IMG/VR virus record: IMGVR_UViG_3300025305_000055
Span: 1 to 37,880 of that record
DNA: 37,880 bases
Origin: a virus
Direction: 5' to 3' (one strand)
Shown: piece after piece, positions 1 to 18,976 of the stretch
Layout of the letters: each line of letters opens with the position of its first letter
Numbering within the stretch: position 1 is the stretch's first letter
Notes under the pieces: generated by a model
The model's input: only the letters and a program-made list of their open reading frames with translations
What the model was told of the DNA's origin: nothing
Databases searched by the model: none
Program-made: the position numbers and the translations under genes

Positions 1-649
1 GGAAATCTTCAAGAAATTCATCGGTGATCCCCGCCTGCTCAAGTAGACGCTGGCGTTCTTCTGGATCTGTTGCGTGCCCCAATATCTCCTCTAAAGGAAT
101 GACAGAAGGTGACCATTCCTTCCACCGGAAAGGCGGTGGTCGTTCTTCCTCACCCGCATCATCCGTTGATGCTCCAGCCTTGAGTACTCCACCTCCCTGC
201 GGTGTACCCGGCCTTTGCGGTGGTCCTATAATGACCTTCTGCTCCATCAATCGCCTGAAGACTTCAGATCTTTTCCTATCCGCCTCTGTTTCATCTAGCT
301 TTGGCGCTTTCAGAGGAGGATGGATTTTCTTATAATCCTCCAACTCTCGCTCCCGCCTCTCTCGATCCTCTTGAATTTTTTTGCGGATTGGTTCGAGTTC
401 CCGGTCTATTCTCCTCTGCTCCTCCTCATCCTTCCGTTTTTGCTGCGGCGTTCTCTGATCTCTCGGCTGCTCGGGTTGCTTACCCTTTACATCCTGCCCG
501 ATGCCGCCCGGTGGACCCGGACGAACGACAACAGGCGGAACTTCGTCAGGATCTTTTGGAATTCCGGTGGTGAATGGAGTAGTTGATGGCATCACCAGCC
601 AAGGAAATTGAAGCCGCAGTTTGAGAAGCTCTAAAAAGTCGATACTCAT
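1..649 (-). CDS. Proline-rich, charged phage protein (C-terminus cut by window edge)
   Basis: The reading frame starts at ATG 649 and runs off the left edge (216 complete codons). I translated it by hand. It opens with MSIDFLELLKLRL, followed by a proline/glycine stretch and then a long Arg/Glu/Lys-rich segment (about residues 60-115, with repeated QKRKDEEE and RERRERELEDY-like pieces) that should form a charged helix or coiled coil. It begins 11 bases after the stop of the metallopeptidase-LysM gene, so the two are probably co-transcribed. I recognise no domain. Its low-complexity style resembles the virion-type proteins at the right end of the window. A structural or internal virion role is an inference only. 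Confidence 0.7.
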   Translation of the reverse strand, partial: MSIDFLELLKLRLQFPWLVMPSTTPFTTGIPKDPDEVPPVVVRPGPPGGIGQDVKGKQPEQPRDQRTPQQKRKDEEEQRRIDRELEPIRKKIQEDRERRERELEDYKKIHPPLKAPKLDETEADRKRSEVFRRLMEQKVIIGPPQRPGTPQGGGVLKAGASTDDAGEEERPPPFRWKEWSPSVIPLEEILGHATDPEERQRLLEQAGITDEFLEDF

Positions 650-660
650 CTAGAAATATC

Positions 661-1992
661 CTAGCGCCATGGATCAATTGGTGATTGAATCTCACCAAAC
701 TCACCGATGACGGACGGATCGCTCTTGTCCAAATTCCAGCTTTGCTCGCTTTCCGGAGGAAACACAATTATGTCACCCTCGTAAATTTTATCTGGATTAT
801 TCGGATCTCGCTGACGTTCCAGTGTATACCCACCTAGCCTACCCTGCATGATGTTCGTTTTTAGATCGCCTACACTTATATTAAATCGCTCGGAAAGCTT
901 GCTCAAGGTATCGTTCGGTTTAATCGTGTAGTGACCCCGATCCAGTATCTTTGCATCTTCCCTCTTCCGCTCTTCGTATTCAATAAATCTCTTAATACCC
1001 TTCTCTGATAACGCTTTCCGTTCCCCCTCCAATCCCGTGTCCGGTGATTCATAATACCTTTCTGACGCTGCCTCATGTGCAACATCAAGAGATTCTTTAG
1101 GAATTACTCTTTCAAATATTTCCCGCATCCACGGGTTTTCGTCTAGCGACCTTCGCGCCTCTTCGGTGAGCAAACCTTTTTTTGAATCCATCACCGCCTC
1201 CTCAAACACTGTAGCGACATGCTCCATCGGATTCGCCCACTTGTAGAAACTTTTGTGGTCCTTCGGATCGGCGCCGTACGCAAGAGCTGTGTATTTCGAA
1301 ACATCGAAATCAGTCACGGGAGGTCTATAATCCGTAGCAACTTCCTCTGGATCCCTCCACCTCTCGTCGGCCTCCGTATTCATCATCTGCATACTCGTCG
1401 ATGGAGATTGACTGTAAATTCCCCCGCCCACGCCAGTCGGAATATGACCCTTCATCCCCCCGCCTTCAGGGTTCCAGTCCAAGTAATGGCCGAATTCGTG
1501 CAAAATTATTGCTACCAGTTCTTCTACTCCAGTCGAGCGATACCTATGCTCCATAGCTGCTTCGTCTCCTACTTGATCCAGCCATGTCTCGTCGGGTCCG
1601 GACTGTACGTTTTTCTCTGCTGCTGCTCCAGCGTAGATGGCGTTGATTGGGTTCTCAAAGTACGCAAGTGCGCTGTTAGGGGACTGCCACTTTTGAAACG
1701 GACCCTCAAAATTAGCTACCGCCTCTTCAAGCGCAGCATACCCTTCATCAGTTAAAAGCCCCTGATCCTTGATAGATTGCATCGCAAGCTTGCGAAGTTC
1801 AATCATTTTATTCCAGTCACCCGGCTCAGTTCCGGGTCCACCTATGGGAGTACGTTCGATAGTAGTGCGTATTGCATCTGCAAAGCTGGTGTCGGAGAGC
1901 GCACTTATGGCCTTAGGTATGATCTTAGGAATGAAACTTCCAAGGCCGCCGACGTCCCGGGGAGGCGGGTATGATGGTTGGTTGTCAGCCAT
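661..1992 (-). CDS. Zinc metallopeptidase with C-terminal LysM domain
   Basis: This 443-residue protein has a zinc-binding HEFGH motif at residues 165-169 followed by xxD (HEFGHYLD), the HExxH signature of zincin peptidases. A conserved-looking acidic helix (EHVATVFEEA, about 257-266) could supply the third zinc ligand. Residues about 354-412 form a LysM-like module (HYTIKPNDTLSKLSERF, then EGDIIVFP), a fold that binds peptidoglycan. The N-terminus is proline-rich with no signal peptide. Together these suggest a virion-associated or lytic peptidase that acts on the cell wall or on virion proteins during entry or exit. An extended -10 lies 30 bases upstream of ATG 1992. A GAGG sits rather far (about 13 bases) from the start. 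The HExxH and LysM are visible directly; the substrate is unknown. Confidence 0.75.
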   Translation of the reverse strand: MADNQPSYPPPRDVGGLGSFIPKIIPKAISALSDTSFADAIRTTIERTPIGGPGTEPGDWNKMIELRKLAMQSIKDQGLLTDEGYAALEEAVANFEGPFQKWQSPNSALAYFENPINAIYAGAAAEKNVQSGPDETWLDQVGDEAAMEHRYRSTGVEELVAIILHEFGHYLDWNPEGGGMKGHIPTGVGGGIYSQSPSTSMQMMNTEADERWRDPEEVATDYRPPVTDFDVSKYTALAYGADPKDHKSFYKWANPMEHVATVFEEAVMDSKKGLLTEEARRSLDENPWMREIFERVIPKESLDVAHEAASERYYESPDTGLEGERKALSEKGIKRFIEYEERKREDAKILDRGHYTIKPNDTLSKLSERFNISVGDLKTNIMQGRLGGYTLERQRDPNNPDKIYEGDIIVFPPESEQSWNLDKSDPSVIGEFGEIQSPIDPWR

Positions 1993-2021
1993 TTGTGTTG
2001 ATGTTCCTCATTTGCTGTGTG

Positions 2022-2030
2022 AGTATAGCA
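2022..2030 (-). promoter_or_regulatory. Extended -10 promoter for metallopeptidase-LysM gene
   Basis: Read on the minus strand this is TGC-TATACT, a TGN extended -10 with a 5/6 match to TATAAT. Transcription would start near 2015, giving a leader of about 23 bases before ATG 1992. No convincing -35 is seen, as is usual for extended -10 promoters. The same TGN-TATAAT form recurs at other transcription-unit starts in this window. Confidence 0.55.
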
Positions 2031-2056
2031 TATGAATCGGCCTGTGTGCCGCTTGG

Positions 2057-2083
2057 ACCTCTCCCCCCTATAGGGGGGGAGGT
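2057..2083 (-). terminator. GC-rich hairpin without U-tract
   Basis: A nearly perfect hairpin with an 11-bp stem (ACCTC then six C, pairing with six G then GAGGT), one bulged base at 2062 and a TATA loop. It lies between the end of the small-terminase-like gene and the promoter at 2022-2030. No run of T follows on either strand, so it may be a weak terminator, an RNA-processing site or a transcript-end stabiliser. The rest of the 1993-2234 gap holds only the promoter and no gene that I can support. Confidence 0.45.
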
Positions 2084-2234
2084 TCCGGCCACTGGGAACA
2101 GGCGGGAGAACGTCATATCGCGTGGTACAAGGACTGGAGGCGCATATTTTTACCTGTTTTCATTATTTTTCCCCGGAATCCACCCTCTTTTAATCCTGTA
2201 TGACGCTGTTTTGTAGGATTTGTAGTTATATTCG

Positions 2235-2864
2235 TTATTTTGGCAGGGGAAGCGGTGTTTCGTCAATGTTTTTTGGGGATTGAGAGGGATGTTCCTCTGC
2301 TTTAGCCGACGCAGCGGTCCACACTGGCGAGATATTGTCTGCGAATGGGGGTGGGGGTAGTGGTGGGGCTGGTGTAGTGGTAGTGGTAGGGTTGAGTGTA
2401 GGTCTTGTCTTACGTGGGTTATGAATCGCAATATGATGCACATCGTTAGAGGTGGATGGCGTACCAATAGATCTCGAACCGAGGCGGAGTACCTCCTTCG
2501 CTGCGGTGATCGAACCAGCATCGCTGGCCGCTACCAGTGTGCGAATAGCACTGGGAATCGCCTCGGTTAAAGACTCAGACGCTCCATCTAACGTGTGTGC
2601 ATAATATAGCTTTTGCAGCTCCGAAACGACCACAGCCAGAGGGTGGCGATATCTATCGATTGAGCGTGAGGACACGTTCGCCTCGGCAGCGGCTTCATCA
2701 ATAGAGCATCCTTTCGACAAAGCTATCGCCACAGCAGCGTGCGTCGTCGTCAACTGCCTTGGCAGACCCTCCAAAACCCCAGCACTCTGAGCGGCCTTGA
2801 GCATCCCAAGCACACGCTGCAAAGCGTCCAGTCTAGAATTGCCGTCCATCCGAAAAATATCCAT
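2235..2864 (-). CDS. HTH protein, possible terminase small subunit
   Basis: This 209-residue protein has a helix-turn-helix-like segment at residues 53-75 (GCSIDEAAAEANVSSRSIDR), where an alanine-rich helix is followed by a recognition helix. A predicted all-helical core follows (to about 135), then a long Pro/Thr-rich low-complexity tail. This architecture (N-terminal HTH, helical middle, disordered tail, about 200 residues) fits phage small terminases and other phage HTH proteins. An extended -10 ends only five bases before ATG 2864, so the mRNA would be leaderless or nearly so. A second in-frame ATG (2849) also lacks an SD. No large terminase is next to it in the window, so the terminase call is a guess from architecture. 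A transcription regulator is the main alternative. Confidence 0.5.
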   Translation of the reverse strand: MDIFRMDGNSRLDALQRVLGMLKAAQSAGVLEGLPRQLTTTHAAVAIALSKGCSIDEAAAEANVSSRSIDRYRHPLAVVVSELQKLYYAHTLDGASESLTEAIPSAIRTLVAASDAGSITAAKEVLRLGSRSIGTPSTSNDVHHIAIHNPRKTRPTLNPTTTTTPAPPLPPPPFADNISPVWTAASAKAEEHPSQSPKNIDETPLPLPK

Positions 2865-2869
2865 TCACC

Positions 2870-2878
2870 ATTATACCA
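2870..2878 (-). promoter_or_regulatory. Extended -10 promoter, leaderless start
   Basis: Read on the minus strand this is TGG-TATAAT, a perfect -10 hexamer with the TGN extension. The hexamer ends five bases before ATG 2864, so transcription should begin at or next to the start codon. That would explain the absence of an SD sequence. Confidence 0.6.
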
Positions 2879-2948
2879 GCACAAAAGAAAGACAAAGCTT
2901 CCAGAGGTGCACTTCAGTCCAAAGCTTTTATACCCACAACGCTAAATC

Positions 2949-3007
2949 CGGTGCGCGGGCAGAAACTGCCCATCAAACCCAGACGGGTTTGATAGAAGAG
3001 CGCACCG
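2949..3007. other. Perfect three-way-junction inverted-repeat element
   Basis: Three perfectly complementary stems tile 59 bases with almost nothing unpaired. The outer stem CGGTGCGC (2949-2956) pairs with GCGCACCG (3000-3007). The first inner hairpin is GGGCAG/CTGCCC (2957-2962 with 2966-2971, loop AAA). The second is ATCAAACCC/GGGTTTGAT (2972-2980 with 2985-2993, loop AGAC). The only junction bases are the six at 2994-2999 (AGAAGA). As RNA it would be a compact three-way junction; as DNA, a cruciform. It sits between the divergent HTH gene and zinc-ribbon gene. It has no tRNA T-arm and no hammerhead core. Function unknown: a structured RNA, replication origin or packaging site are all possible. 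Confidence 0.7.
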
Positions 3008-3030
3008 CCTCATATCATTCCTACCTCTCT

Positions 3031-3093
3031 CCTGTGCCTCTGACGCTAGCACATCCCCAGAAGCTGGGGAAGTGCGCTTACAACCGGCACAGG
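3031..3093. other. Second structured inverted-repeat element
   Basis: An 8-bp perfect outer stem, CCTGTGCC (3031-3038) with GGCACAGG (3086-3093), closes over an inner hairpin. The inner hairpin is GCAC-A-TCCCCAG (3049-3060), loop AAG, CTGGGGA-A-GTGC (3064-3075), which is 11 pairs with one A/A mismatch. It extends by two more pairs (3045-3046 with 3076-3077) across a TA bulge. It follows the three-way junction by 23 bases and ends 33 bases before the zinc-ribbon gene, so it may form part of that gene's leader or one larger DNA/RNA structure. No U-tract follows, so it is not a standard terminator. Confidence 0.6.
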
Positions 3094-3126
3094 CGCGAGT
3101 TAGGCGCTTGGCATGGAGAATAGATC

Positions 3127-3858
3127 ATGGCTAGAAAGCCGCTTCAACCGTTCACCGCAGTCCACACGCTCCAGTTCGAGTGGGCCAGAATCGGAAACTT
3201 GCAATGGGCAACGAGATGTGCAGATCCAGTATGCGACGATGGCACAGGTCAGCCCGTATATCTCGATCAAACCACCGATGAGTACTCACACGGCGAAATG
3301 GTCGTAGTGGTTCCACACGCTACCAACCGATATGCGCCGTGGACAGTATTTTGCATCAAGTGTGCCTCACAGTGGGATAACTTCCACCAATTAGCCTTTA
3401 CTCGCAATTACAAGTTTGCAAGCCCATGGGCTAAGCAGATGACACGACTAGATCCGAGATTCAATCACACAGCCGAGATCATTGAGACCGAGATCCGCGA
3501 GCCTCGCGCATGTCGACAACACGGATACACCAGCTTCTATAGCCCTGCACACGACGAACACCTGTGCTCTCAGTGTGAGAACCATTCCATGGTCGGGAGA
3601 GCCCTTTACGACTACTACGCACATCAAAGTGTGGAAGTCCATAAGGACACCGAGGTCACTAGGAAGCGCGGAGTAGGCGACACACCAACGAGTATACCCA
3701 ATAATACAGAGGAGGATGCCGACACACCTACGGTTGAACAAACTGAGGAGTACAAGTCCCAACTCATGCTTTCGAAGCGTGCTGAACAATCACGACCTTC
3801 CACCAGCAGGGAGCGAGGAAAACGCAAGCCTCGCAGATCTAGCAAAGCTGGCAAGTAA
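3127..3858 (+). CDS. Zinc-ribbon-like hypothetical protein
   Basis: This 243-residue protein of unknown function starts at ATG 3127 behind GGAGA (8-base spacing). It carries several Cys pairs: CADPVC near residue 31, FCIKC near 77 and HLCSQC near 140, with an additional Cys/His group (CRQHG) near 127. These suggest one or two structural zinc sites. The N-terminal two thirds looks globular. The C-terminal third is acidic, then strongly basic and Ser-rich (ending in RGKRKPRRSSKAGK), typical of a nucleic-acid-binding tail. It stands alone between two structured intergenic regions and ends at a strong terminator, so it is a separate transcription unit. A DNA- or RNA-binding early regulator is plausible but unproven. 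Confidence 0.65.
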   Translation: MARKPLQPFTAVHTLQFEWARIGNLQWATRCADPVCDDGTGQPVYLDQTTDEYSHGEMVVVVPHATNRYAPWTVFCIKCASQWDNFHQLAFTRNYKFASPWAKQMTRLDPRFNHTAEIIETEIREPRACRQHGYTSFYSPAHDEHLCSQCENHSMVGRALYDYYAHQSVEVHKDTEVTRKRGVGDTPTSIPNNTEEDADTPTVEQTEEYKSQLMLSKRAEQSRPSTSRERGKRKPRRSSKAGK

Positions 3859-3863
3859 AGCAT

Positions 3864-3905
3864 GGAGGGGAGGGGGAGAAATCCCCTTCCTCTCCAAGTT
3901 TTTTT
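3864..3905 (+). terminator. Rho-independent terminator after zinc-ribbon gene
   Basis: A 14-bp stem (3864-3877 with 3882-3895) contains two G.U pairs valid in the plus-strand RNA. It has a GAAA tetraloop (3878-3881) and a tail of seven T (3899-3905). This is a textbook intrinsic terminator and the strongest in the window. It isolates the 3127-3858 gene from the small-gene operon downstream. Confidence 0.9.
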
Positions 3906-3982
3906 AGTCGAACACAACAAGACCTAAGAAATACAAGAAAATATAGATGAGGGTCAGTAACATACCAATCTACATCAATCTT

Positions 3983-4177
3983 ACGACTCCTTGTAACAAT
4001 ATCAATAAAAATAATCAATACTCATAAACATAGACCGAATCCGTGCCCGCAGCCGAACCGGAGTCGTCACCTTTTACTCGTTTTCAACTCTGGCACGGCC
4101 AGCGTACCACACGCTCCTCGTTCCTCGTCGCTGTGTGGTAATGCTGGTGGTGCCCGAGATTGAAACGGGTAAAAGGT
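3983..4177 (+). ncRNA. Candidate structured RNA / leader of the small-gene operon
   Basis: This is the core of a 311-base gap (3906-4216) without a gene. Bases 4069-4114 pair with 4130-4177 in a long imperfect hairpin: about 40 pairs, four mismatches, one or two bulges. The 15-base loop (4115-4129) contains TCCTCGT twice in tandem. Four pairs (4078/4168, 4084/4162, 4098/4148, 4104/4142) are G.U in a plus-strand transcript but would be A/C clashes in the opposite strand, so selection appears to act on plus-strand RNA. Just upstream, ACGACTCC (3983-3990) pairs with GGAGTCGT (4060-4067) and encloses an A-rich segment. It ends 39 bases before the first gene of the operon. No homology to a known RNA class is recognised. 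The remainder (3906-3982, 4178-4216) is A/T-rich with nothing I can name. Confidence 0.6.
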
Positions 4178-4216
4178 TAATTTATTGTGCTTAGTGTGTT
4201 GAAAGGAATGAGTTGA

Positions 4217-4519
4217 ATGAATCCAATTCAAAAGTTCATAGTACTCAATCTATTTGAGAATACAAATGAAGTATTCAAATTTATACACAGAATGAATATG
4301 ATGAGAGCTAAAAATAATGTAGAGAATTTAGCATTCAAATATAAAGCTGCAAAAGTAGAGTTAGTTGAATTAAATGAGACAAATCAAGAACATTTCGTTC
4401 CAATGATACACGCATTTATAAAAGAAACAGATGAACAAATTGCTGGATCTGAGTATTTAACAGATGAAGAATTCCATCTAGAAATGAAAGAAATAAACGA
4501 TTGGAAGGAGACCAAATAA
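4217..4519 (+). CDS. Small early hypothetical protein (100 aa)
   Basis: First gene of the A/C-rich small-gene block. The 100-residue product is predicted helical and rich in Lys, Glu and Asn (NENTNEVFKF early, KETDEQIAGSEYL late), soluble, with no membrane segment or recognised motif. AAAGGA lies about ten bases upstream of ATG 4217. The upstream structured leader suggests this gene heads the operon. The function is unknown; a host-takeover or accessory role is only suggested by position and size. Confidence 0.65.
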   Translation: MNPIQKFIVLNLFENTNEVFKFIHRMNMMRAKNNVENLAFKYKAAKVELVELNETNQEHFVPMIHAFIKETDEQIAGSEYLTDEEFHLEMKEINDWKETK

Positions 4520-4584
4520 ACTGGTAAACATGAGCTACACCGCAATAAATGAAATCATAGATATGATTTTAGAAAGTAAATATT

Positions 4585-5106
4585 ATGTCAGAAAGTCTAG
4601 ACGAGTACATAAACAACAAGATTTTATCCGAAGGACAAGACGGCAGATGCGAATTGCTAGCAGCATGGACATCAATCATCATGCACCAAATCATAAACAT
4701 ACCCGATGACATGGAAATAACAAAAGAACTCATTGAACCATGGGGCATGACACTCATACACGCACTTGAGATCTCTGGATTTGATCCAGATGAAATCAAA
4801 CCAGTATCAGAAGAAATCTTACGATTGCTTAGAGTTGACTACGACGAGATAACAGTAAATAAGCTTCTAGACCAACTCGATGATGATCCAGAACCATTCG
4901 ACAACGTTACTGAAATACTAAAAGTTTTAGATCAATTTGCAACAGCCCCTGACATCGATGAATTGCTTGAAGCTCTAAAAATACATTTCGATAACCCGAC
5001 ACTAACGAAAACTTGGGTAATCAATACAGTTAAAAAGAATAAGGTACTAAACGAATTACTCTACACTAACCCAACGTTCAATCCAGAGGAAAACAATACT
5101 GCCTGA
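4585..5106 (+). CDS. Acidic early hypothetical protein (173 aa)
   Basis: A 173-residue, strongly acidic, predicted all-helical protein with Asp/Glu-rich segments such as LLDQLDDDPEPFDN near the middle and short Leu-rich helices. An in-frame stop at 4570 fixes ATG 4585 as the earliest start, though the spacer shows no clear SD. It overlaps the next frame, which has no canonical start. No family recognised. Very acidic phage early proteins sometimes mimic DNA or bind host enzymes, but nothing here shows that directly. Confidence 0.65.
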   Translation: MSESLDEYINNKILSEGQDGRCELLAAWTSIIMHQIINIPDDMEITKELIEPWGMTLIHALEISGFDPDEIKPVSEEILRLLRVDYDEITVNKLLDQLDDDPEPFDNVTEILKVLDQFATAPDIDELLEALKIHFDNPTLTKTWVINTVKKNKVLNELLYTNPTFNPEENNTA

Positions 5107-5338
5107 CGATAAGAACCAATTCACCATTGAAACCGATGCACTGGTCACACATAGAGTATGGGGACGATTCATCGTTCGAGCACACACAAGTGAACAAGCA
5201 GAGGAGCTATTCACTGAAACTATAACTAATGGACGCGATCCAATAGTCATATACGAAATGGAGGTAGAACCAGAAATACTCGACCAGATAGATGATCATG
5301 AATGGAATACTGAAAATCTCGTTATAGAAAGAGGATAA
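5099..5338 (+). CDS. 79-aa protein lacking a canonical start codon
   Basis: An open frame of about 79 codons ends at TAA 5336-5338, directly before the next ATG. It reads as a normal protein (NQFTIETDALVTHRVWGRF, then EQAEELFTETI) and fills a space otherwise empty in the operon. The frame contains no ATG, GTG or TTG until well inside it (about residue 52). A good SD (AGAGG, 5085-5089) sits 6 bases before ATA 5096 and 9 before CTG 5099, so initiation at CTG, ATA or a nearby codon is the simplest reading. It lies +1 relative to the upstream 173-aa gene, whose stop context is GCC TGA C, so a +1 frameshift fusion is a less likely alternative. The start given here is tentative. Confidence 0.55.
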   Translation: MPDDKNQFTIETDALVTHRVWGRFIVRAHTSEQAEELFTETITNGRDPIVIYEMEVEPEILDQIDDHEWNTENLVIERG

Positions 5339-5339
5339 G

Positions 5340-5594
5340 ATGCACACATCTACAATTAGACCTGATACTAGTTCTGACAAAATCGAAGTACAACAAGCTA
5401 GTTATTATGGTCGAAGACAAGACTTTGAAAAATCAGTAATCGTTAGAATTAAGGAACACAAATCACAAAAATGGGACACACTAGAGGATGCAATGGTCCA
5501 TCAACAACGAAATTGTCAAATCACTCTGGACAAAATCTCAATCGCTACATTAATCTCATCACTCATAGCTATTCGAGACAATCAAAATGAGTAA
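5340..5594 (+). CDS. Small early hypothetical protein (84 aa)
   Basis: An 84-residue protein starting at ATG 5340 with GAGG six bases upstream, immediately after the preceding stop. Residues about 28-38 (FEKSVIVRIKEHK) look like a beta strand, followed by a helical C-terminus (LDKISIATLISSLIAI). Its last codons overlap the next gene. The compact form could be an antirepressor or host-factor inhibitor, but no family is recognised. Confidence 0.65.
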   Translation: MHTSTIRPDTSSDKIEVQQASYYGRRQDFEKSVIVRIKEHKSQKWDTLEDAMVHQQRNCQITLDKISIATLISSLIAIRDNQNE

Positions 5595-5763
5595 CAAATT
5601 CCCAATCATTGCTGATTATGTGCCAGTACTTCAATCAATCCTTGAAAACTATCACAAGGCAGATTTCAAAACTCAAAAGATGGCAATGGAACTAATGGCA
5701 AATGTAGGACACCACATGAATATAGCTAGAGATAAAGCAATGGAATCTGATGACAACGAATGA
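5587..5763 (+). CDS. Small early hypothetical protein (58 aa)
   Basis: A 58-residue product read by hand. ATG 5587 overlaps the stop of the previous gene by 8 bases, and its TGA (5761-5763) lies inside the next gene's start region. The protein is helical and Met/Lys-rich (KTQKMAMELMANV), without Cys or membrane segment. The tight overlaps on both sides and the same base composition support it as a real gene. Function unknown. Confidence 0.6.
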   Translation: MSNKFPIIADYVPVLQSILENYHKADFKTQKMAMELMANVGHHMNIARDKAMESDDNE

Positions 5764-5941
5764 GAAATTAACAGTCATCCAAAATACCCTTAAAGAATGT
5801 GCATCATTCGCAGATGACTATGGATATGGTGATTATGATTCGATGATAGAAGCCGTTGCATTAATACAAGAAGTCAAAAACGAATACCAAGAAATCCTGA
5901 AGTGTATGAATCTAACAGTAAAACTTTTAGGAGACGATTAG
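5750..5941 (+). CDS. Small early hypothetical protein (63 aa)
   Basis: A 63-residue helical, acidic protein. ATG 5750 overlaps the previous gene by 14 bases with GGAA just upstream, and the stop TAG directly abuts the next ATG at 5942. It has a Tyr/Gly/Asp patch (DDYGYGDYDS) between two helices. No recognised domain. Confidence 0.6.
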   Translation: MTTNEKLTVIQNTLKECASFADDYGYGDYDSMIEAVALIQEVKNEYQEILKCMNLTVKLLGDD

Positions 5942-6511
5942 ATGCCATTCAACGAAACCTATAACACATCATTCGCACCCTACACACATGATCCAACGGA
6001 TATGGAATTCTGGAACAACAAACGACGTACATTACTAACATTATACTGGTTCCCAGAAGATGCTGTCAGAGCTATTGATCCAGACAAAGCTCTACGAAAC
6101 TACTCAACCTGCTGGGAAGAAAGAAAACTAAAATGCCCACTAGGTCAAGCATGTAATCAAATGGTCACAGAAATGGGAGGCAGTGCCCTACCAATAAGCG
6201 AACAATATAGAGCAACCGTATCCGAAATCATGGACTCAGACAAACCTCCACCAACAGCCATTCAAACAGTCCTCAACACCTACTACAACGAATTCAGTCA
6301 AACAGAATATATCCCTCGCACACACTCCCTAGCAGGCAAATACTTACTAGGCGAAGAACTCCCAGAAGGACTTAGTAAAGAACGATACGACGACATCGAA
6401 GCTTTCACAATATATTGGGATGATGGTAAGATTACTAGGAAAGAACTTGCAACCGCTATTAGAAAGCGACTTGAAAATGAAACAACCTACAAATTTACCG
6501 TTGGACTTTGA
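5942..6511 (+). CDS. Early hypothetical protein (189 aa)
   Basis: The largest of the small-gene block. ATG 5942 follows AGGAGA at 9-base spacing. The globular 189-residue protein has a conserved-looking Trp/Tyr-rich N-terminal half (LYWFPEDAVRAIDPDKAL) and two Cys pairs (a lone Cys near 57, then CPLGQAC near 65) that could bind a metal. The C-terminal half is helical and charged. On the coding strand this gene is extremely C-rich relative to G (23 C against 4 G in 6241-6300), the reverse of what is usual in coding DNA. No family recognised. Confidence 0.65.
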   Translation: MPFNETYNTSFAPYTHDPTDMEFWNNKRRTLLTLYWFPEDAVRAIDPDKALRNYSTCWEERKLKCPLGQACNQMVTEMGGSALPISEQYRATVSEIMDSDKPPPTAIQTVLNTYYNEFSQTEYIPRTHSLAGKYLLGEELPEGLSKERYDDIEAFTIYWDDGKITRKELATAIRKRLENETTYKFTVGL

Positions 6512-6683
6512 GCCTACACCCAGAACTTTACCCAACAGAAATACAACAAACTACATCATTGAACATTTCAATGAACAAACTGAGAAATGGGAGTTCTTAC
6601 TAAAAACTAAAAAGGGTAGAATAGCTGAAGATGAGTTGTACTATCCTTACAGCAAACGTCGAATGCGCGTAGAGAAATCATAA
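6477..6683 (+). CDS. Small early basic hypothetical protein (68 aa)
   Basis: A longer frame opens at 6420, but ATG 6477 gives a plausible 68-residue protein that overlaps the previous gene by 35 bases rather than 92. The N-terminus is proline-rich (LPLDFEPTPRTLP), followed by a beta-like core (YIIEHFNEQTEKWEFLLK) and a basic C-terminus (KRRMRVEKS). It ends in a TAATG junction with the next gene. Function unknown. Confidence 0.55.
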   Translation: MKQPTNLPLDFEPTPRTLPNRNTTNYIIEHFNEQTEKWEFLLKTKKGRIAEDELYYPYSKRRMRVEKS

Positions 6684-6913
6684 TGGCTATCAAGATTAAA
6701 GGCATTAAAACTGCCAGAGATCTTCCTAGCCTTATTGATAAATATATCGGTAACATGATCGAACCAGCCGATAAATGCGAGCAATTCAACTTATACAAAG
6801 GCGATAACTATTACCGGGCACGCTGGTACATCGTCAAAGGCAAACTACCCAATGGAGGTGAATGGTATGGAAGTGTAAAGATCAAAAAAGGCATTGTACA
6901 AAAAGTAACATAA
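6683..6913 (+). CDS. Small early basic hypothetical protein (76 aa)
   Basis: A 76-residue, Lys-rich small beta-type protein (YYRARWYIVKGKLPNGGEWY near residues 43-62) that may form an SH3- or OB-like barrel. TAATG junctions couple it on both sides, with no need for an SD. Size, charge and strand pattern would suit a nucleic-acid binder, but that is inference. Confidence 0.6.
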   Translation: MAIKIKGIKTARDLPSLIDKYIGNMIEPADKCEQFNLYKGDNYYRARWYIVKGKLPNGGEWYGSVKIKKGIVQKVT

Positions 6914-7317
6914 TGATTACAGGATATCCAATGACACTCGAACGTTATGTCAATCCACATAAAGCATTCATACGATGGAATGAACTGTTCTATACAGCTA
7001 CGAAACGAGGTGCTATTGAAGTATTCATAGATGAAAGCATGTTAGGCACCGTTAGCCTTTTAATATTTGATGGAAAGGATTACTGGTCACCAAATAGAGC
7101 TATAGCAAATGACGCAATACTTAATCAATTCATAAGCGTCACAGGACGCGAACCAAAATTAGTAGAAGAAACCAATCTATACGAAGAACTGGACTTATAT
7201 GACTTTGATACAGACTTATGGCAAGAAGAAATGGCAGATGCTATTGAAGACAATCAAGAACAATACGCAACTAGACATTGGATTAATCACGGAACAAAGA
7301 TTCCTAATATTCTGTAA
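6913..7317 (+). CDS. Early hypothetical protein (134 aa)
   Basis: ATG 6913 is preferred over the upstream ATG 6862 because it forms a TAATG junction with the preceding stop. The 134-residue product starts MITGYPMTLERYV. It has an alpha/beta look in the first half (AIEVFIDESMLGTVSLLIFD) and a strongly acidic C-terminal half (NLYEELDLYDFDTDLWQEEM). No domain recognised. Confidence 0.6.
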   Translation: MITGYPMTLERYVNPHKAFIRWNELFYTATKRGAIEVFIDESMLGTVSLLIFDGKDYWSPNRAIANDAILNQFISVTGREPKLVEETNLYEELDLYDFDTDLWQEEMADAIEDNQEQYATRHWINHGTKIPNIL

Positions 7318-7331
7318 CACAAGGACATACA

Positions 7332-7643
7332 ATGTCTGAACTCGTATTCCATCCTGAAGATCATCGAAACGGACAAGCAATTGATATCACACCAGCATGG
7401 AAAGATCTCCTTCCAACCATCGTACAAATGTACGGCATAGTTGAAACAAACAAGGCTCAAAACGATCTACTCGATGAAGTTAAACGAGCCGGTGAAATAC
7501 TCGATGCCATGATCCCATTCATGAAAGCCATTCATCCACTAATAGAGGACGGACGCCAAGGTGACTTTAACATGGCAGAAGTAACAGATCTATACGAAAA
7601 TATAGTCAAAATATCCAAAAAGGACAAGTTCAATGGCAGTTAG
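7332..7643 (+). CDS. Early helical hypothetical protein (103 aa)
   Basis: A 103-residue protein, mostly helical, with AAGGA about 9 bases before ATG 7332. It contains amphipathic stretches (AQNDLLDEVKRAGEILDAMI) that could make a coiled coil. It overlaps the next gene by 11 bases. Function unknown. Confidence 0.6.
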   Translation: MSELVFHPEDHRNGQAIDITPAWKDLLPTIVQMYGIVETNKAQNDLLDEVKRAGEILDAMIPFMKAIHPLIEDGRQGDFNMAEVTDLYENIVKISKKDKFNGS

Positions 7644-7896
7644 GAACTGGTGGATCGAAGCCGATATTGATGGTCGTCAAACAACACTCACAGGAGGACC
7701 ACGAAGCAAAGATGGAGGATTTCAACTCAACCTCTATCAACGAGTGAAAGGAGAAATTAAGAAACCATATCGAATTGCTGCATTCATTGATCGTAATGGT
7801 GCCCTACGATGTCAGATTATAGACACCTACCTCGAAACTGGAAATACATGGGGTCAAGGCAAACTCATCCACGAATTCACCTCAGAAAGAGACTGA
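7633..7896 (+). CDS. Small phage protein with DGR.T.L.GGPRSKDGGF signature (87 aa)
   Basis: An 87-residue beta-rich protein. The opening NWWIEADIDGRQTTLTGGP followed by RSKDGGFQLNLYQR resembles a small hypothetical family found widely in phages, with Asp-Gly-Arg and Gly-Gly-Pro-Arg turns between strands. That resemblance is from memory and no function is established for it. ATG 7633 overlaps the preceding gene. Confidence 0.65.
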   Translation: MAVRNWWIEADIDGRQTTLTGGPRSKDGGFQLNLYQRVKGEIKKPYRIAAFIDRNGALRCQIIDTYLETGNTWGQGKLIHEFTSERD

Positions 7897-7897
7897 C

Positions 7898-8149
7898 ATG
7901 AAAGAATTCGAAGTCGAGCTTTACAGAATGACACACTATTCACAATATGGAACATTCGTCATTGAAGCTGAATCAGAACTTGACGCTGAAAAGAAAATCA
8001 ACAAACTCATAGCCGAAGATGCTATTTCCAGTGATAACTATTACAACAACGAAGAAACAGGAGCATGGGAATACGAACCAGATGAACCCGGTGATGAAGA
8101 AGAATCAGATGAATGGGAAATACAAGTCATTAATGAGAAAGAAATCTAA
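7898..8149 (+). CDS. Very acidic early hypothetical protein (83 aa)
   Basis: An 83-residue protein with an N-terminal alpha/beta portion (EVELYRMTHYSQYGTFVIEA) and an extremely acidic C-terminus (EYEPDEPGDEEESDEWE). Such net charge is common in phage proteins that mimic DNA or inhibit host nucleases, but no specific family is recognised. It ends in a TAATG junction at 8149. Confidence 0.6.
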   Translation: MKEFEVELYRMTHYSQYGTFVIEAESELDAEKKINKLIAEDAISSDNYYNNEETGAWEYEPDEPGDEEESDEWEIQVINEKEI

Positions 8150-8304
8150 TGGATCAAACAGAAGAAGATCAAGAACATCTAACCCAAGAAGATCAAGAAC
8201 GTAGATGGAGAGAAAGGAAAAATATCGAACGTAAAAACGATGCTGAATCCTACAAAGGCTCATACTGGCTAGGAAGCATAAGAGAGTTAATTGAAGATGG
8301 ATGA
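8149..8304 (+). CDS. Small charged early protein (51 aa)
   Basis: A hand-read frame of 51 codons. ATG 8149 shares its A with the previous stop (TAATG), and TGA 8302-8304 lies inside the next gene. The protein is Glu/Gln/Arg-rich and probably a single helix (TEEDQEHLTQEDQERRWRER). Its DNA holds a direct repeat of AAGAAGATCAAGAAC at about 8163 and 8187. Function unknown. Confidence 0.5.
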   Translation: MDQTEEDQEHLTQEDQERRWRERKNIERKNDAESYKGSYWLGSIRELIEDG

Positions 8305-8578
8305 AATAGATCTGAGACTTAATGAAGCATTTCAAATCGTTATGGAAGGATTTTCAGATGAAGAATGGGACTTTGGAGACGATACAGGATTTGTTGATAT
8401 ATATAATCTGGTCACCCTCCACGATAATTCTCAGGTAATTGTCTACAATGACAACTTTGGATTTAGATATATCGTATCCGAAGGAAAAGACCTACCTAAA
8501 GATATTAAATATCTAAATAAATCTATGGAAGAATATGCCAACATAGAAGCACAAAGAGAACTCTATCATGCAAATTGA
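8297..8578 (+). CDS. Early acidic hypothetical protein (93 aa)
   Basis: ATG 8297 is chosen over TTG 8291. The 93-residue product is acidic, with an N-terminal helix (LRLNEAFQIVMEGF) and a beta-hairpin-like middle (NSQVIVYNDNFGFRYIVS). It overlaps both neighbours by a few bases (8 and 11). No family recognised. Confidence 0.6.
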   Translation: MDEIDLRLNEAFQIVMEGFSDEEWDFGDDTGFVDIYNLVTLHDNSQVIVYNDNFGFRYIVSEGKDLPKDIKYLNKSMEEYANIEAQRELYHAN

Positions 8579-8906
8579 TGACGAAATGAAGTCAATCATT
8601 GATAACGTACTATCTTCAGCACTCAGCGGTATAAGCAGTCAATGGATTAACATGGTCGTAGTCAAAGGAGGAAATCCCATTGAAAATACCATTGCAGAAA
8701 CACTCATCAAGAAACAACAAGTAGAATTTCAAGTAATAGAAGAATCAAGAAAATACGGACTCACTCTTGAAAATCTTATGGATGCAATTAAGAACTACGG
8801 AATAGAACACGACATGTGTAGAAATTGCTTAAACGATAACATAGATGATGAAATGGGTGATGTAATCCTACAAGAAGCTCTATTCGGAGAATATCGATAT
8901 GCATAA
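8568..8906 (+). CDS. Early helical hypothetical protein (112 aa)
   Basis: A 112-residue, mostly helical protein with a Cys pair in CRNCLN near residue 83, which could be a half-site for a metal or a disulfide. It overlaps the previous and next genes (11 and 8 bases), in keeping with tight operon packing. Function unknown. Confidence 0.6.
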   Translation: MQIDDEMKSIIDNVLSSALSGISSQWINMVVVKGGNPIENTIAETLIKKQQVEFQVIEESRKYGLTLENLMDAIKNYGIEHDMCRNCLNDNIDDEMGDVILQEALFGEYRYA

Positions 8907-9231
8907 AAACCTCAACATCTATGTATTCGGAGGCACATATACACCAAAATCAGATCTCATCTTCAAAATTAATGATCACATTAAAGAAGAGATCACTAAT
9001 CTAAAAGGTCAATGCTTCAGTGAATATGGTACACGATTAACAGCCCATACTAGATCAGGTAACGTATACATATATCAACTCGAAGCCGGTCAACTTGGAG
9101 CCTATGATAAAGACTTCCCTAATGATTTCAATAAATCAAATTGGGAAACATTCGTTCTTAATTGGCACACAGTTTTAGAAATAGCCGCTAATCTACCCTA
9201 CCGATGGAGAAATGCCAATACCGTATGTTAA
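8899..9231 (+). CDS. Early hypothetical protein (110 aa)
   Basis: A 110-residue alpha/beta protein beginning MHKNLNIYVFGGTYTPKSD, with a following central strand-rich part (RSGNVYIYQLEAGQLG). ATG 8899 overlaps the previous gene by 8 bases. No catalytic motif seen. Function unknown. Confidence 0.6.
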   Translation: MHKNLNIYVFGGTYTPKSDLIFKINDHIKEEITNLKGQCFSEYGTRLTAHTRSGNVYIYQLEAGQLGAYDKDFPNDFNKSNWETFVLNWHTVLEIAANLPYRWRNANTVC

Positions 9232-9366: not shown

Positions 9367-9885
9367 TTGACACACCAAGAAATAGAAGAGATATTCAAAA
9401 CCCAAGACAGCAAGTTGAAAGGATATCTATATAATAATTTCAACCGGATTCCAAAAGAAGAACGGGAGGATATATTACAGGAAACCTATATCACACTGTT
9501 ATCGAATCCGCACAGGTTCGACACTGAACGCGACACATTCCCCCTCATGTGCCAAATGGCAAAGATGCGAGCATTAGGACGAATCAGACACTTCAAAATG
9601 GCTGATACGAAACACGAATCAATCTATATCAAGTACACCGAACCACAAACTGAAATATCAGACCCCGCATACATACTCCGCATTGAAGATGAGTTGACAA
9701 ATAGACAAGCCGAGATCTTTCACCTATTCGTACAAGGATACTCATACTCAGAAATCATGGATATGTGCAACATCGCGAGACAAACTGTCAACACAACTCT
9801 CGCTAGGGCACGGGAGATTCTCCGTTCGATATTTTCGTTGCATATGCGTCCAAGTCACCCCACTCACCAATATCAAAATCAATAA
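9367..9885 (+). CDS. Sigma-70 family (ECF-like) RNA polymerase sigma factor
   Basis: A 172-residue two-domain sigma factor. Region 2 spans about residues 10-75 (EEREDILQETYITLL, then QMAKMRALGRIRHF). Region 4 spans about 105-155 with a clear HTH (LTNRQAEIFHLFVQGYSYSE, then IARQTVNTTLARAREIL). The start is TTG 9367 behind GGGAGG (9355-9360, 6-base spacing). It should bind host core RNA polymerase and redirect it, probably to middle or late phage promoters. Its last 83 bases overlap the 3' end of the minus-strand primase-helicase, which may allow antisense interference. Its target promoter is not identifiable here. The family call is firm; the regulon is unknown. Confidence 0.85.
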   Translation: MTHQEIEEIFKTQDSKLKGYLYNNFNRIPKEEREDILQETYITLLSNPHRFDTERDTFPLMCQMAKMRALGRIRHFKMADTKHESIYIKYTEPQTEISDPAYILRIEDELTNRQAEIFHLFVQGYSYSEIMDMCNIARQTVNTTLARAREILRSIFSLHMRPSHPTHQYQNQ

Positions 9886-11470
9886 CCAACTGACCGGGAA
9901 CCGAGGCACGTCGAAACTCACGTTGCACAATAACCTGTGCCTTTTTATCAGTAGGACGCTCAACATACAACCCGCACACAATCCAATTATGAAAATTGTT
10001 ACTCCCACTCAACCGTTGTCCCGCACGTGACGTATCCGACTTACCCTGTTTCTTACGCCAATGATGACACACCACCACAGCAGCACTAGAATCCTTACTC
10101 AACTTACGCAACCAATTAAGAATAGGACGCACCTCATGGGCCTTAGTCTCATCGACACCGCCCAACATCGAATACAACGGATCAAAAATTATCAATACCG
10201 GACGGATACGCTCAACCTCATCACGCACACGCTCCAAATGCTCAGGATCAGTGAGATTAAACCCACTCTGATTAAGAAAACGTATAGGAAGATTACGAGT
10301 CGGAGCCAGTTGTCGATCCCGTCCCTCAGTCCAAATCGCAGGGGAAGGAAACAATCCGCGCTCGCGCAACATTTTATACATAAGATCAGGCAAGTAATAA
10401 TCCGCATCATTCTCTTCCTGAATTATCAACACCGGACCATTACGATGCACTTCAAACTTGCCAAGGAACGGTTCACCACTGGCAACGGCAATAGCCATTT
10501 CCAACGTCAACATGGATTTATGACTCTTAGCCTCACCACCCACGATACCCCAAGCATCAGCGTGCCAGACATCTTTAATCAACCATCCCGCATCCATCGG
10601 CTGATTTGCCAGCAACTCAGACAACCATACGAATTCCGATTCAACCGGAGCCTCATCTAATGCAACCGCGCCAGCCACTGAACTACGCATTACACATTGA
10701 GAGAGACGCAACCCCTCATCTTCGCGACCACGGAACTTATTCCATGGGGACGCTTTCACAAGCGTATACGTTTCCGCAGGAGACAACCCGTCTTCCTGTA
10801 GTTGCGCTGACATCCGAAATAAGAAATCAGACCGATCCACACCATTCTCTAAAGGTCGATCAAGCAATTCACGAGATGTCACACCAAGCTTACTCATCAA
10901 CATACTTATTGGCACATCAACAGGCACCAGTTCCGTATCCATCGATTCAACCTGCACAGCCGGGTACGCAAAATGAAAGGTAGTCGTCGTATAGGTCGTG
11001 GGTTCACTCCACAACAATTCAACCACAGGAGCGCTTGGATACTTAAAGTTACGGGTGCCGGGAACGCGCAACACTTGCGTAATATCCCATCCGCCCTTAT
11101 CCGCACCTTCAGCATAGGCCATACGCTTACCACACTCAGCCGCCTCTGCCGCTTCTACAGGAGCATCCAACTCCCACAACGCTTGGAAGCGTCCGGGCGA
11201 TGATTGCCATGCAATGGTCGGGCGTATCTGGAGACGATCAGGATGTACAAAGTCTAGGTCTGCCCATACCCACGTTACGAATACGGCATTCTCACTACGA
11301 CGCAACCCACGAAAATGAACCGGAGCAAAATAAACATCACGCTTTCTCGATACAAGATCTTCAATGTCTGGCAGATCAAGCGGAACAGGGTGCTCTAACC
11401 ATGTATTCTCTTGGTCCGGGTCATTGGATGAGAAATGCGTTGGATGTAGTCGGCGAAGAAATTCTTTCAA
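9803..11470 (-). CDS. Primase-helicase (AEP-like primase plus RepA/AAA_25 ATPase)
   Basis: This frame is open to an ATG at 11509, but AAGGAGGG (11475-11482) sits five bases before TTG 11470, which I take as the start (555 residues). The N-terminal part carries an archaeo-eukaryotic-primase pattern: a DxD in VWADLDF (about residues 71-73), SSPGRFQALWEL, then RVPGTRNFKYP. The C-terminal part is a RecA-like ATPase with Walker A GGEAKSHKS (about 311-319), Walker B LIIFD (about 426-430) and VVCHHW downstream, as in RepA/AAA_25 helicases. It should prime and unwind DNA at the fork. It diverges from the SNF2/polymerase operon through a shared promoter, and its 3' end overlaps the sigma gene. Confidence 0.8.
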   Translation of the reverse strand: MKEFLRRLHPTHFSSNDPDQENTWLEHPVPLDLPDIEDLVSRKRDVYFAPVHFRGLRRSENAVFVTWVWADLDFVHPDRLQIRPTIAWQSSPGRFQALWELDAPVEAAEAAECGKRMAYAEGADKGGWDITQVLRVPGTRNFKYPSAPVVELLWSEPTTYTTTTFHFAYPAVQVESMDTELVPVDVPISMLMSKLGVTSRELLDRPLENGVDRSDFLFRMSAQLQEDGLSPAETYTLVKASPWNKFRGREDEGLRLSQCVMRSSVAGAVALDEAPVESEFVWLSELLANQPMDAGWLIKDVWHADAWGIVGGEAKSHKSMLTLEMAIAVASGEPFLGKFEVHRNGPVLIIQEENDADYYLPDLMYKMLRERGLFPSPAIWTEGRDRQLAPTRNLPIRFLNQSGFNLTDPEHLERVRDEVERIRPVLIIFDPLYSMLGGVDETKAHEVRPILNWLRKLSKDSSAAVVVCHHWRKKQGKSDTSRAGQRLSGSNNFHNWIVCGLYVERPTDKKAQVIVQREFRRASVPGQLVIDFDIGEWGDLDAYATKISNGESPVP

Positions 11471-11493
11471 GTTGCCCTCCTTACTGGTGCGGC

Positions 11494-11502
11494 TGCTATA
11501 AT
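11494..11502 (+). promoter_or_regulatory. Extended -10 promoter for replication operon
   Basis: TGC-TATAAT, perfect hexamer with TGN extension. The start would be near 11509, directly before the GGGAGGG (11509-11515) of the helicase GTG start. It overlaps the opposing -10 at 11498-11506. Confidence 0.65.
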
Positions 11503-11506
11503 AGCA
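11498..11506 (-). promoter_or_regulatory. Extended -10 promoter for primase-helicase
   Basis: Read on the minus strand this is TGC-TATTAT (5/6 match). It lies within the near-palindrome GCTATAATAGC shared with the plus-strand promoter. The start would be near 11491, nine bases before AAGGAGGG and the TTG start of the primase-helicase. Confidence 0.5.
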
Positions 11507-11519
11507 CATGGGAGGGACA

Positions 11520-17375: not shown

Positions 17376-17679
17376 TCCAGAGACTCGTCTCCAACAATCC
17401 ATTATCCGCCACCTCCAATCGGAGGTGGGTGGATGGTGGGTTAAGTATCATGGGTCTGCTATCACACGAGCCGGAATACCGGATATTTTGGGCGGCTGTG
17501 AGGGACTTTTTTTCGCGTTCGAAGTAAAAACATCAACAGGAAAGACAACAAAGATTCAAGACTACACACTAAAGGAACTCAACGATAGCGGCGCAGGTGT
17601 CGCTCGTGTTGTCGATAACCCTAAAGATGCTGTAGCGATTGTACACACAGCCTTAACTAACAGGAGGCAACATGATTAA
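17368..17679 (+). CDS. VRR-NUC domain nuclease
   Basis: A compact nuclease of about 103 residues from GTG 17368 (TTG 17347 would add seven). The PD-(D/E)XK core is visible: an early Glu in ETRLQQSIIRHL, the Asp of GIPDILGG, and the E-x-K of FFAFEVKTSTGK. Stand-alone VRR-NUC proteins are common next to phage replication genes and are thought to cut Holliday or replication-fork structures. It overlaps both neighbours by 8 bases. Confidence 0.85.
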   Translation: MSNPETRLQQSIIRHLQSEVGGWWVKYHGSAITRAGIPDILGGCEGLFFAFEVKTSTGKTTKIQDYTLKELNDSGAGVARVVDNPKDAVAIVHTALTNRRQHD

Positions 17680-18295
17680 TGAGAGTGACCTTATCGCTGA
17701 ATTGCGTGGTGGCGGTGATACGCAAGTAACTGCGGAAGAATTTGCTGCACAGGTAAAAGGTATGACTGAGGAACAGGCTATGGAATCCTCAGAAACGAAA
17801 GTTCTTACGATGTTCTCTGAGATCGCTATGTCGCATGGATTCACTCCAACACTCGCAGTAAGTTTATTGGCTGAGGCCGGACGAAATTTTGAGATCGATG
17901 CCGAGTGGACACCAGAGGATTCCATTCATATTAGTGATTGGTTAAAGGAAGCACAGGCTAGAAAACGTCGCGCAGGATCAGAGCTTCCGTATGAACCAGA
18001 TACTGAAGGCGCATTAAAGCTTCCAGTGCCTGTGACAGATGGAATTACGCTCCCACAAGACCCGGAACCTATCGAACCTGAGATCGTACCCAGTAAATCC
18101 GCATCAACGCACACGGTAACCACAAAAGAGATTGTCGTCAATTTCAAGGATCGTGATGAAGCGGATGAGTTCCTTAAGATGTTCGAACTGGGAGAACCTG
18201 TTAGCTTAGGCAAACCGGGCAATGCGCGAATTGTTATGCAAGTCGCGAGTTATTCGGCACAAGAGGCTGCATGGGAAAACTTCTCCGTAGCTTAA
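17672..18295 (+). CDS. Hypothetical protein at end of replication operon (207 aa)
   Basis: A 207-residue acidic protein starting at ATG 17672 behind AGGAGG. It has a helical N-terminal half (TPTLAVSLLAEAGRNFEIDA), a Pro-rich linker (PVPVTDGITLPQDPEP) and a compact C-terminal alpha/beta segment (TTKEIVVNFKDRDEADEFL). No family recognised. Operon position suggests a replication or recombination accessory. Its TAA directly abuts the stop of the convergent metallophosphatase. Confidence 0.7.
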   Translation: MINESDLIAELRGGGDTQVTAEEFAAQVKGMTEEQAMESSETKVLTMFSEIAMSHGFTPTLAVSLLAEAGRNFEIDAEWTPEDSIHISDWLKEAQARKRRAGSELPYEPDTEGALKLPVPVTDGITLPQDPEPIEPEIVPSKSASTHTVTTKEIVVNFKDRDEADEFLKMFELGEPVSLGKPGNARIVMQVASYSAQEAAWENFSVA

Positions 18296-18976
18296 CTACC
18301 AGTCCGAATTCAAAGGATCGTACGGGACGTAAGTAACGCCTACACGCTTGTTGTTGTGTATGTCTAACAACACGCCACCTACGTTTGGATGGAGGTTCTT
18401 CCCCTTTTCATACGGTGTCTGAGATTGGAAACACGCAGCGTTAACGCCGGTGACTCCTTTCTCATACACCGAGTTGAAGAAGTGAAAGTGTCCGACAAGC
18501 AAGATGTCAGGGGTAATTTCGTTCCTCCAGATCTCTTGTTGTGCCCGATAGCTTTTAGCAAGCCCCGGACTTCCACCCGGATGGTATAGACGAATCTTTA
18601 CTCCGTGGATGGAGACGAACGCTTCGTCATTGCCCATGAATTTAAAGTCATCACGCTGCTTACAAACTGCTCGAACCGGATTGTATCCACTCTCTTTCAT
18701 GAGAGAGATGTCATGGTTCCCGGTAATGATTGAAGTCTTCAGTCCAGTGTCGGGATACTTGGCTACAGCATAATCGACCATTTCATCCGCAGAATCCAAG
18801 AACCGTAAAAATTCTGACCCTCTGTGGCTCATACGCCCTTCAAAAAGGTCACCGACGTGTAATATCTCCTCGGCACCTTCGCGTTTAGCGAACCGTAAGA
18901 ACTTACGGAGTGCGCTGAGTTGCTGGAACTTAGATCCTAGATGTGTGTCCGATACAACCGCAATGCGGAACGACAC
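18296..18976 (-). CDS. Calcineurin-like metallophosphoesterase
   Basis: A 226-residue protein starting at GTG 18976 with GGAGA seven bases upstream. The metallophosphoesterase motifs are complete: VVSDTHLGS (D, H), HVGDLFEG, ITGNHD and VGHFHFF. It could be an SbcD/Mre11-type nuclease or a nucleotide/phosphoprotein phosphatase. No ATPase partner of the SbcC/Rad50 type is seen in the window. It is the last gene of the late operon, directly after the holin-like gene, and meets the replication operon tail-to-tail with no gap. Confidence 0.85.
   Translation of the reverse strand: MSFRIAVVSDTHLGSKFQQLSALRKFLRFAKREGAEEILHVGDLFEGRMSHRGSEFLRFLDSADEMVDYAVAKYPDTGLKTSIITGNHDISLMKESGYNPVRAVCKQRDDFKFMGNDEAFVSIHGVKIRLYHPGGSPGLAKSYRAQQEIWRNEITPDILLVGHFHFFNSVYEKGVTGVNAACFQSQTPYEKGKNLHPNVGGVLLDIHNNKRVGVTYVPYDPLNSDW

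Follow-up and report, generated by a model that had tools for sequence, protein, structure and literature searches.

A perfect three-way junction occupies positions 2949 to 3007 of the genome record of an uncultivated phage, and its fold is real and not a chance pattern. The junction is best explained as a lineage-specific cis-acting control element, most likely the 5' part of a structured leader RNA read from the + strand, a reading that we hold tentatively and somewhat short of an even chance; we infer its transcription, the strand and the regulated target. As a leader RNA, it would give these uncultivated phages a small regulator of high stability that is easy to test and has no known relative; as an operator, it would show that palindromic control sites can mimic branched RNA. 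Under either of these two readings, the unit to which it belongs would mark an added gene at the early/late divide of the phage. The window is the whole stretch of DNA analysed, that is the whole record of 37,880 bases.

Geometry and folding of the junction

The junction was delimited by folding both strands and by a motif scan, and is made of the following parts.

2949-3007, no strand assigned: three-way junction
2949-2956/3000-3007: outer stem P1, 8 bp
2957-2962/2966-2971: stem P2, 6 bp, loop AAA
2972-2980/2985-2993: stem P3, 9 bp, loop AGAC
2994-2999: junction strand AGAAGA

This geometry, with stems of 8, 6 and 9 bp, two small loops and the AGAAGA strand, is exactly the one claimed in the original prediction, and folding on both strands, proposed there as a check, recovered the three stems with RNA parameters on + and -. 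All 23 pairs are Watson-Crick with zero G-U, and P1 closes flush on the two abutting hairpins. The RNA minimum free energy of 2949-3007 is -36.7 kcal/mol for either strand (z -8.3 on +, -7.6 on -), and none of 200 shuffles per strand folded as well. DNA parameters gave the identical fold (-24.2/-24.3 kcal/mol, z -8.4/-8.9), and in longer contexts the pair probability was at least 0.997 on both strands for the one pair tested in each junction stem.

On the + strand the 13 unpaired bases are 9 A, 3 G and 1 C, hence 12/13 purines (P 0.0017, one-sided binomial with p = 0.5; purine fraction of the intergene 0.51). Purine-rich unpaired bases are typical of structured RNAs, and this bias was counted in favour of a structured + strand. 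The total lack of G-U among 23 pairs, on the other hand, was counted against a leader RNA.

The junction is not a chance pattern

The motif scan required 6 or more perfect pairs in both outer and inner stems, with loops of 3-8 and at most 8 unpaired junction bases, and the 37,880-base window holds a single match, the junction itself. No match was obtained in 300 first-order Markov resamplings of the window, where the best summed stem length under the four settings tried was 18 vs 23 for the junction, and 100 bacterial genome pieces (728,852 bases) gave one weaker match with a sum of 19. Together with the z-scores, these counts bear out the earlier statement that such a design is unlikely by chance. 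In energy the junction ranks fourth among 60-base windows, after a hairpin at 2041, a terminator at 3846-3907 and a hairpin at 17386, all of which fold more strongly. That the outer stem fits flush on two adjoining hairpins speaks for selection of the fold itself.

Family searches gave no match to a known element. With Rfam, no match was found in the window at the gathering threshold, and a permissive search (E<=5) of 2000-4250 gave 8 weak matches, none of them over 2949-3007. The ARAGORN model returned no tRNA or tmRNA gene, in agreement with the prediction that the junction is not a tRNA, and no intrinsic terminator (GC stem and T run) was found at 2949-3007 on either strand. No match was obtained by blastn of the region against a phage collection of 50,697 records, where the phage group has only distant relatives, or against plasmids. 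The exact pattern of the P1 left arm and P3 was present in one viral contig, the near-identical L004. The P1 left arm and P2 pattern occurred in at least 100 stretches of bacterial genomes; among the matches listed, 2 had GCGCAC and none had GCGCACC in the next 98 bases, so that none of these is the full element. No description of such an element was found in the available portions of the literature on phage three-way junctions, N4 promoters, put RNA, cruciform operators and structured-RNA surveys.

Phage genome and flanking genes

The ends of the window are bridged by contig L007 (120-8640), with 119 bases at 100% and 3055 bases at 99.7%; as L007 joins the two ends, the genome map closes into a circle of about 46.4 kb. 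Genes for the large terminase (5138-6793) and an SLT lysozyme lie in the 8.5 kb missing from the window and carried by L007, along with a likely portal assigned from its position only. The junction is single-copy in the 37.9 of about 46.4 kb scanned, and no second junction was found in L004 and L007, which cover most of the remaining genome. The phage encodes a family A DNA polymerase. As separate observations, it also encodes a sigma-70-like factor at 9367-9885 (PF08281, phrog_1740), and a RepB-type primase and AAA_25 helicase gene at 9803-11509 is oriented against the replication genes around it.

The junction sits in a 262-base gap (2865-3126) between two divergent genes, in the following arrangement.

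2235-2864, - strand: gene of an HTH-type DNA-binding protein, 209 aa, with homologues about 30% identical in phages G001 and L021
2870-2875, - strand: TGGTATAAT, extended -10 serving the HTH gene; the ATG is about 6 bases away, leaderless type
2929-2938, + strand: TATACCCACA, possible weak -10/start region just upstream of the junction
2989-3018, + strand: sigma-70-like promoter candidate TTGATA-N18-TATCAT, 10/12 matches
3020-3104, no strand assigned: gapless imperfect palindrome of 85 bp, 28/42 half-positions complementary
3115-3120, + strand: GGAGAA, candidate ribosome-binding site of gene 3127-3858, read by eye
3127-3858, + strand: gene whose 243-aa product carries three pairs of cysteines (CADPVC, CIKC, CSQC)
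3863-3907, + strand: predicted intrinsic terminator, 15-bp stem and T run, closing the unit
4069-4177, + strand: second long imperfect hairpin, of 45 pairs (3 of them G-U on the + strand), before the next early gene, at 4217

The predicted intergenic placement therefore stands, with the HTH and cysteine-pair genes diverging on either side, but the description of the HTH gene as small-terminase-like is weakly supported. The window HTH protein has no PHROG family at E<=0.001, matches Pfam HTH_29 below the cut-off and gave no match in a fold search against the PDB (E<=0.001); the protein of a relative matches phrog_2538 (terminase small subunit) at E 0.0048, ranked below a transposase family. No PHROG or Pfam family was matched by the cysteine-pair protein, and tblastn of both flanking proteins against phages (E<=1) gave no match. 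Structure predictions were too poor to help, with a mean pLDDT of 57.9 for the HTH protein and 34.4 for the cysteine-pair protein.

Together, the junction, gene 3127-3858 and the terminator at 3863-3907 appear to be a moron-like addition: the unit has a promoter and a terminator of its own, both predicted, and is absent at the same place in two relatives. A GC content of 0.53 in the intergene and 0.52 in the gene, against 0.37 in the early block (4217-9231), was counted for an added unit; the HTH gene itself has a GC content of 0.54, so that GC alone is no mark of a foreign unit.

Conservation in related phages

Relatives were sought via the flanking proteins, the polymerase, an exonuclease alignment, an HTH alignment and a conserved hairpin. 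The two flanking proteins led to the near-identical contig L004 alone; besides it, HTH homologues were found only in G001 and L021 by protein, alignment and hairpin searches. A test of 8 records with the HTH protein gave 1 match (G001), and the HTH alignment search in genomes gave none. The record of G001 has 44,185 bases, and its ends (start of L013, end of L018) have 98 bases in common, which makes it probably a complete circle.

L004 differs from window 1-6184 by 10 mismatches (of 6184 aligned bases), with an identical junction and, in the aligned stretch around it, a single difference at window 2924. The junction is thus known from one virus population only (2 contigs). In the more distant G001 and L021, which retain the HTH gene, it is absent from the corresponding place beside that gene, even though the polymerase, helicase and recombination proteins of G001 are 75-88% identical to those of the window phage. 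The cysteine-pair gene was not found in G001, and its protein had no match in L021, where the contig extends only 480 bases beyond the HTH start. The original prediction held that a region unconserved beside conserved flanking genes would speak against it, and this was found in part: the junction is missing where the HTH gene is kept, but the other flanking gene is missing too. The joint lack of gene and junction in G001 and L021, with the HTH gene kept, was counted for an added unit.

Confinement to one population and relatives that manage without the junction would agree with a structure of no current function, either a hairpin relic or perfect repeats left by templated mutation. Such an origin is nevertheless very unlikely, as it has to face three mutually fitted stems and a junction unchanged between contigs differing at 10/6184 bases, the latter a weak argument with one difference in the local alignment.

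L021 also carries a junction-like match of 6/6/6 pairs at 710-760, inside the HTH coding sequence. As a side observation, the same gene contains at 717-732 the exact sequence TGTTTCACGTGAAACA, which we take to be a ParB site from its consensus; it was not found in the window or in seven other loci scanned.

A second structured element in the intergene

The whole 262-bp intergene is structured (z -6.0 on +, -5.6 on -), compared with z-scores of -0.2 and -1.4 for the unstructured intergene of G001 and of -2.6 and -2.2 for the mildly structured stretch of L021. Palindrome 3020-3104, which the original prediction does not mention, forms a long hairpin that separates the junction from the ribosome-binding site (z -5.4 on +, -4.7 on -), and is alone at its score in the window, with none in 20 shuffles. 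Its fold is slightly stronger on the - strand (-46.9 vs -43.8 on +), and its mismatches are C.U, U.C and A.A on the + strand and G.A, A.G and U.U on the - strand. The mismatches suit a - strand RNA or a DNA symmetry better; they and the energy were counted against the leader.

The 3' strand of P1 (2999-3005) has an alternative partner at 3072-3078 in this second hairpin (inverted repeat I6), so that the two domains could trade a helix; the equilibrium fold strongly favours the junction over this pairing. The 109-base hairpin 4069-4177 precedes the early operon (4060-4190 has a + strand z of -9.3), and its + strand G-U pairs ahead of the next early gene were counted for the leader.

Predicted promoters and possible control at the DNA level

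The best promoter candidate, TTGATA-N18-TATCAT, is the only 10/12 candidate on the + strand of the intergene, with an expectation of 0.035 per intergene of equal size. Its -35 (2989-2994) lies in the right arm of P3, and transcription from it would start downstream of the junction, leaving the junction untranscribed, which was counted against the leader. Counted likewise was the lack of any + strand sigma-70-like promoter of at least 8/12 matches upstream of 2949 in the intergene. The weak TATACCCACA just upstream of the junction resembles TATACTCACA ahead of the LysM gene (2018-2027, - strand), and these two are the only exact sites of TATACYCRCA in the window, a motif defined post hoc and of weak weight; no -35 was found for TATACCCACA.

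Overlap of a palindrome with promoter hexamers, as expected of an operator, is observed here with a promoter that is a consensus match only. The early genes of G001 and L021 have a comparable layout, with the -35 TTGACA in the right arm of a TTGTCAA-N-TTGACAA palindrome in 4/4 palindromes, at promoters scoring 10-11/12 matches.

L018 19628-19655 (G001): palindrome promoter
L013 273-293 (G001): palindrome promoter
L013 527-555 (G001): palindrome promoter
L021 58-85: palindrome promoter

Control would then act on DNA, with P2, P3 and palindrome 3020-3104 as candidate two-fold symmetric regulator sites at divergent promoters, P3 being an operator over the -35 of promoter 2989-3018 and the branched fold a by-product. 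We regard this as rather unlikely, though a serious contender, since besides the rarity of such a promoter and the layout of the relatives it agrees with junction pairs that are all Watson-Crick and with an 85-bp palindrome free of gaps. It leaves the flush 8-bp outer stem unexplained, however, and would not lead one to expect the purine bias of the unpaired bases; the P3 site is single in the window even with 3 mismatches allowed, and the palindrome sequences are unlike those of the relatives. A perfect 8-bp outer stem is not needed by independent protein-binding palindromes, which favours the leader reading.

The compact and stable fold, and the RNA-like mismatches of 3020-3104 on the - strand, could also belong to a free-standing small RNA or to a - strand leader of the HTH gene, for which two promoter-like sites (9/12) exist on that strand beyond the next gene, at 3940-4005. 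We consider this highly unlikely: no terminator-like site stands beside the junction on either strand, no - strand promoter of at least 9/12 was found upstream of it in the intergene, and the HTH gene has its own extended -10 TGGTATAAT, to which the junction lies upstream in the direction of that gene.

Conserved non-coding DNA next to the junction

Better conserved non-coding elements adjoin the junction region at 2041-2206. A GC hairpin between the HTH and LysM genes recurs in the two relatives.

2041-2095 (window): conserved GC hairpin
About 18270-18335 (L018): same hairpin
About 1258-1315, - strand (L021): same hairpin

This hairpin, a candidate conserved RNA or packaging/terminase site, is flanked by GGCCTGTGTGCCG and GGCCACTGG with no T run after it. 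It is almost unchanged in relatives with an HTH protein of only about 30% identity; the L021 copy has changes on either side of the stem base. The inverted repeat GCGTSRTACAAG ... YYTGTATRACGC (window 2120-2131 and 2195-2206) is also present in L018 and L021, with an AT-rich core and a nearly constant start-to-start spacing (75, 74, 74) in the three phages.

For a DNA hairpin or cruciform serving replication or packaging (single-strand initiation site, origin or terminase site), the conserved hairpin and inverted repeat at 2041-2206 are better candidates than the junction, which does not occur in a relative that shares the replication genes (75-88% identical). Nothing origin-like was found to mark out the junction site, which leaves the suggested replication origin unsupported. 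Such a role is therefore unlikely, even with a fold that is perfect on both strands with DNA parameters, pairs free of wobble and a site at the turning point between two divergent blocks.

A model for a possible structured leader

In the leader reading, which takes up the regulatory leader suggested earlier, structured intergene 2949-3104, gene 3127-3858 and terminator 3863-3907 would form one unit; a second fold reaching up to the ribosome-binding site and a terminator-like site behind the gene argue for reading 2949-3907 in this way. Transcription would start just upstream of the junction, following TATACCCACA, at about 2941. Folding would begin with the three-way junction and continue with the long hairpin 3020-3104, and together the two may set the output of the downstream gene or whether the polymerase reads on, with the ribosome-binding site (3115-3120) remaining outside the main helices. 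More speculatively, and with a quite low probability in our view, the three-way junction and the long symmetric hairpin could jointly switch a moron, as a phage leader RNA of a new class.

Comparison with known systems

The packaging RNA of phi29 is a three-way junction pRNA in a phage intergene, and the junction resembles it in both respects. The window phage differs in having no phi29-like gene set and no Rfam match. A packaging RNA of the phi29 type was considered and rejected on gene content, the phage having a family A DNA polymerase, RepB_primase/AAA_25 and an ordinary large terminase; the packaging RNA suggested earlier thus finds no support.

The promoters of the N4 virion RNA polymerase are short DNA hairpins with perfect stems and a 3-base purine loop, acting as early promoters, and P2 is likewise a perfect short hairpin with the purine loop AAA. 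A difference may lie in the polymerase: the 2171-aa protein of the virion region (29239-35754) matches no solved structure (PDB, E<=1, where an N4-like RNA polymerase was looked for), no Pfam and no PHROG. Its G001 homologue, as a side observation, is only 28% identical.

The put RNA of HK022, an antiterminator leader of early operons through which RNA polymerase passes over terminators, consists of two stem-loops and comes in two similar copies (PMC9378689). The likeness is that of a structured element of about 60-70 nt opening an early-side unit, in which a gene comes next and a terminator last. The window phage differs by its closing third stem and by a single copy of both P3 and the junction, where put has one copy per early operon; put also lies downstream of an early promoter, whereas no good promoter but only the weak TATACCCACA precedes the junction.

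Within the phage group, the comparison is with the operator-like palindromes of G001 and L021, which share with the junction an inverted repeat holding the -35 in its right arm. They differ from it in sequence, are present in several copies in G001, and have neither the outer stem nor the second hairpin that accompany the junction in the window phage.
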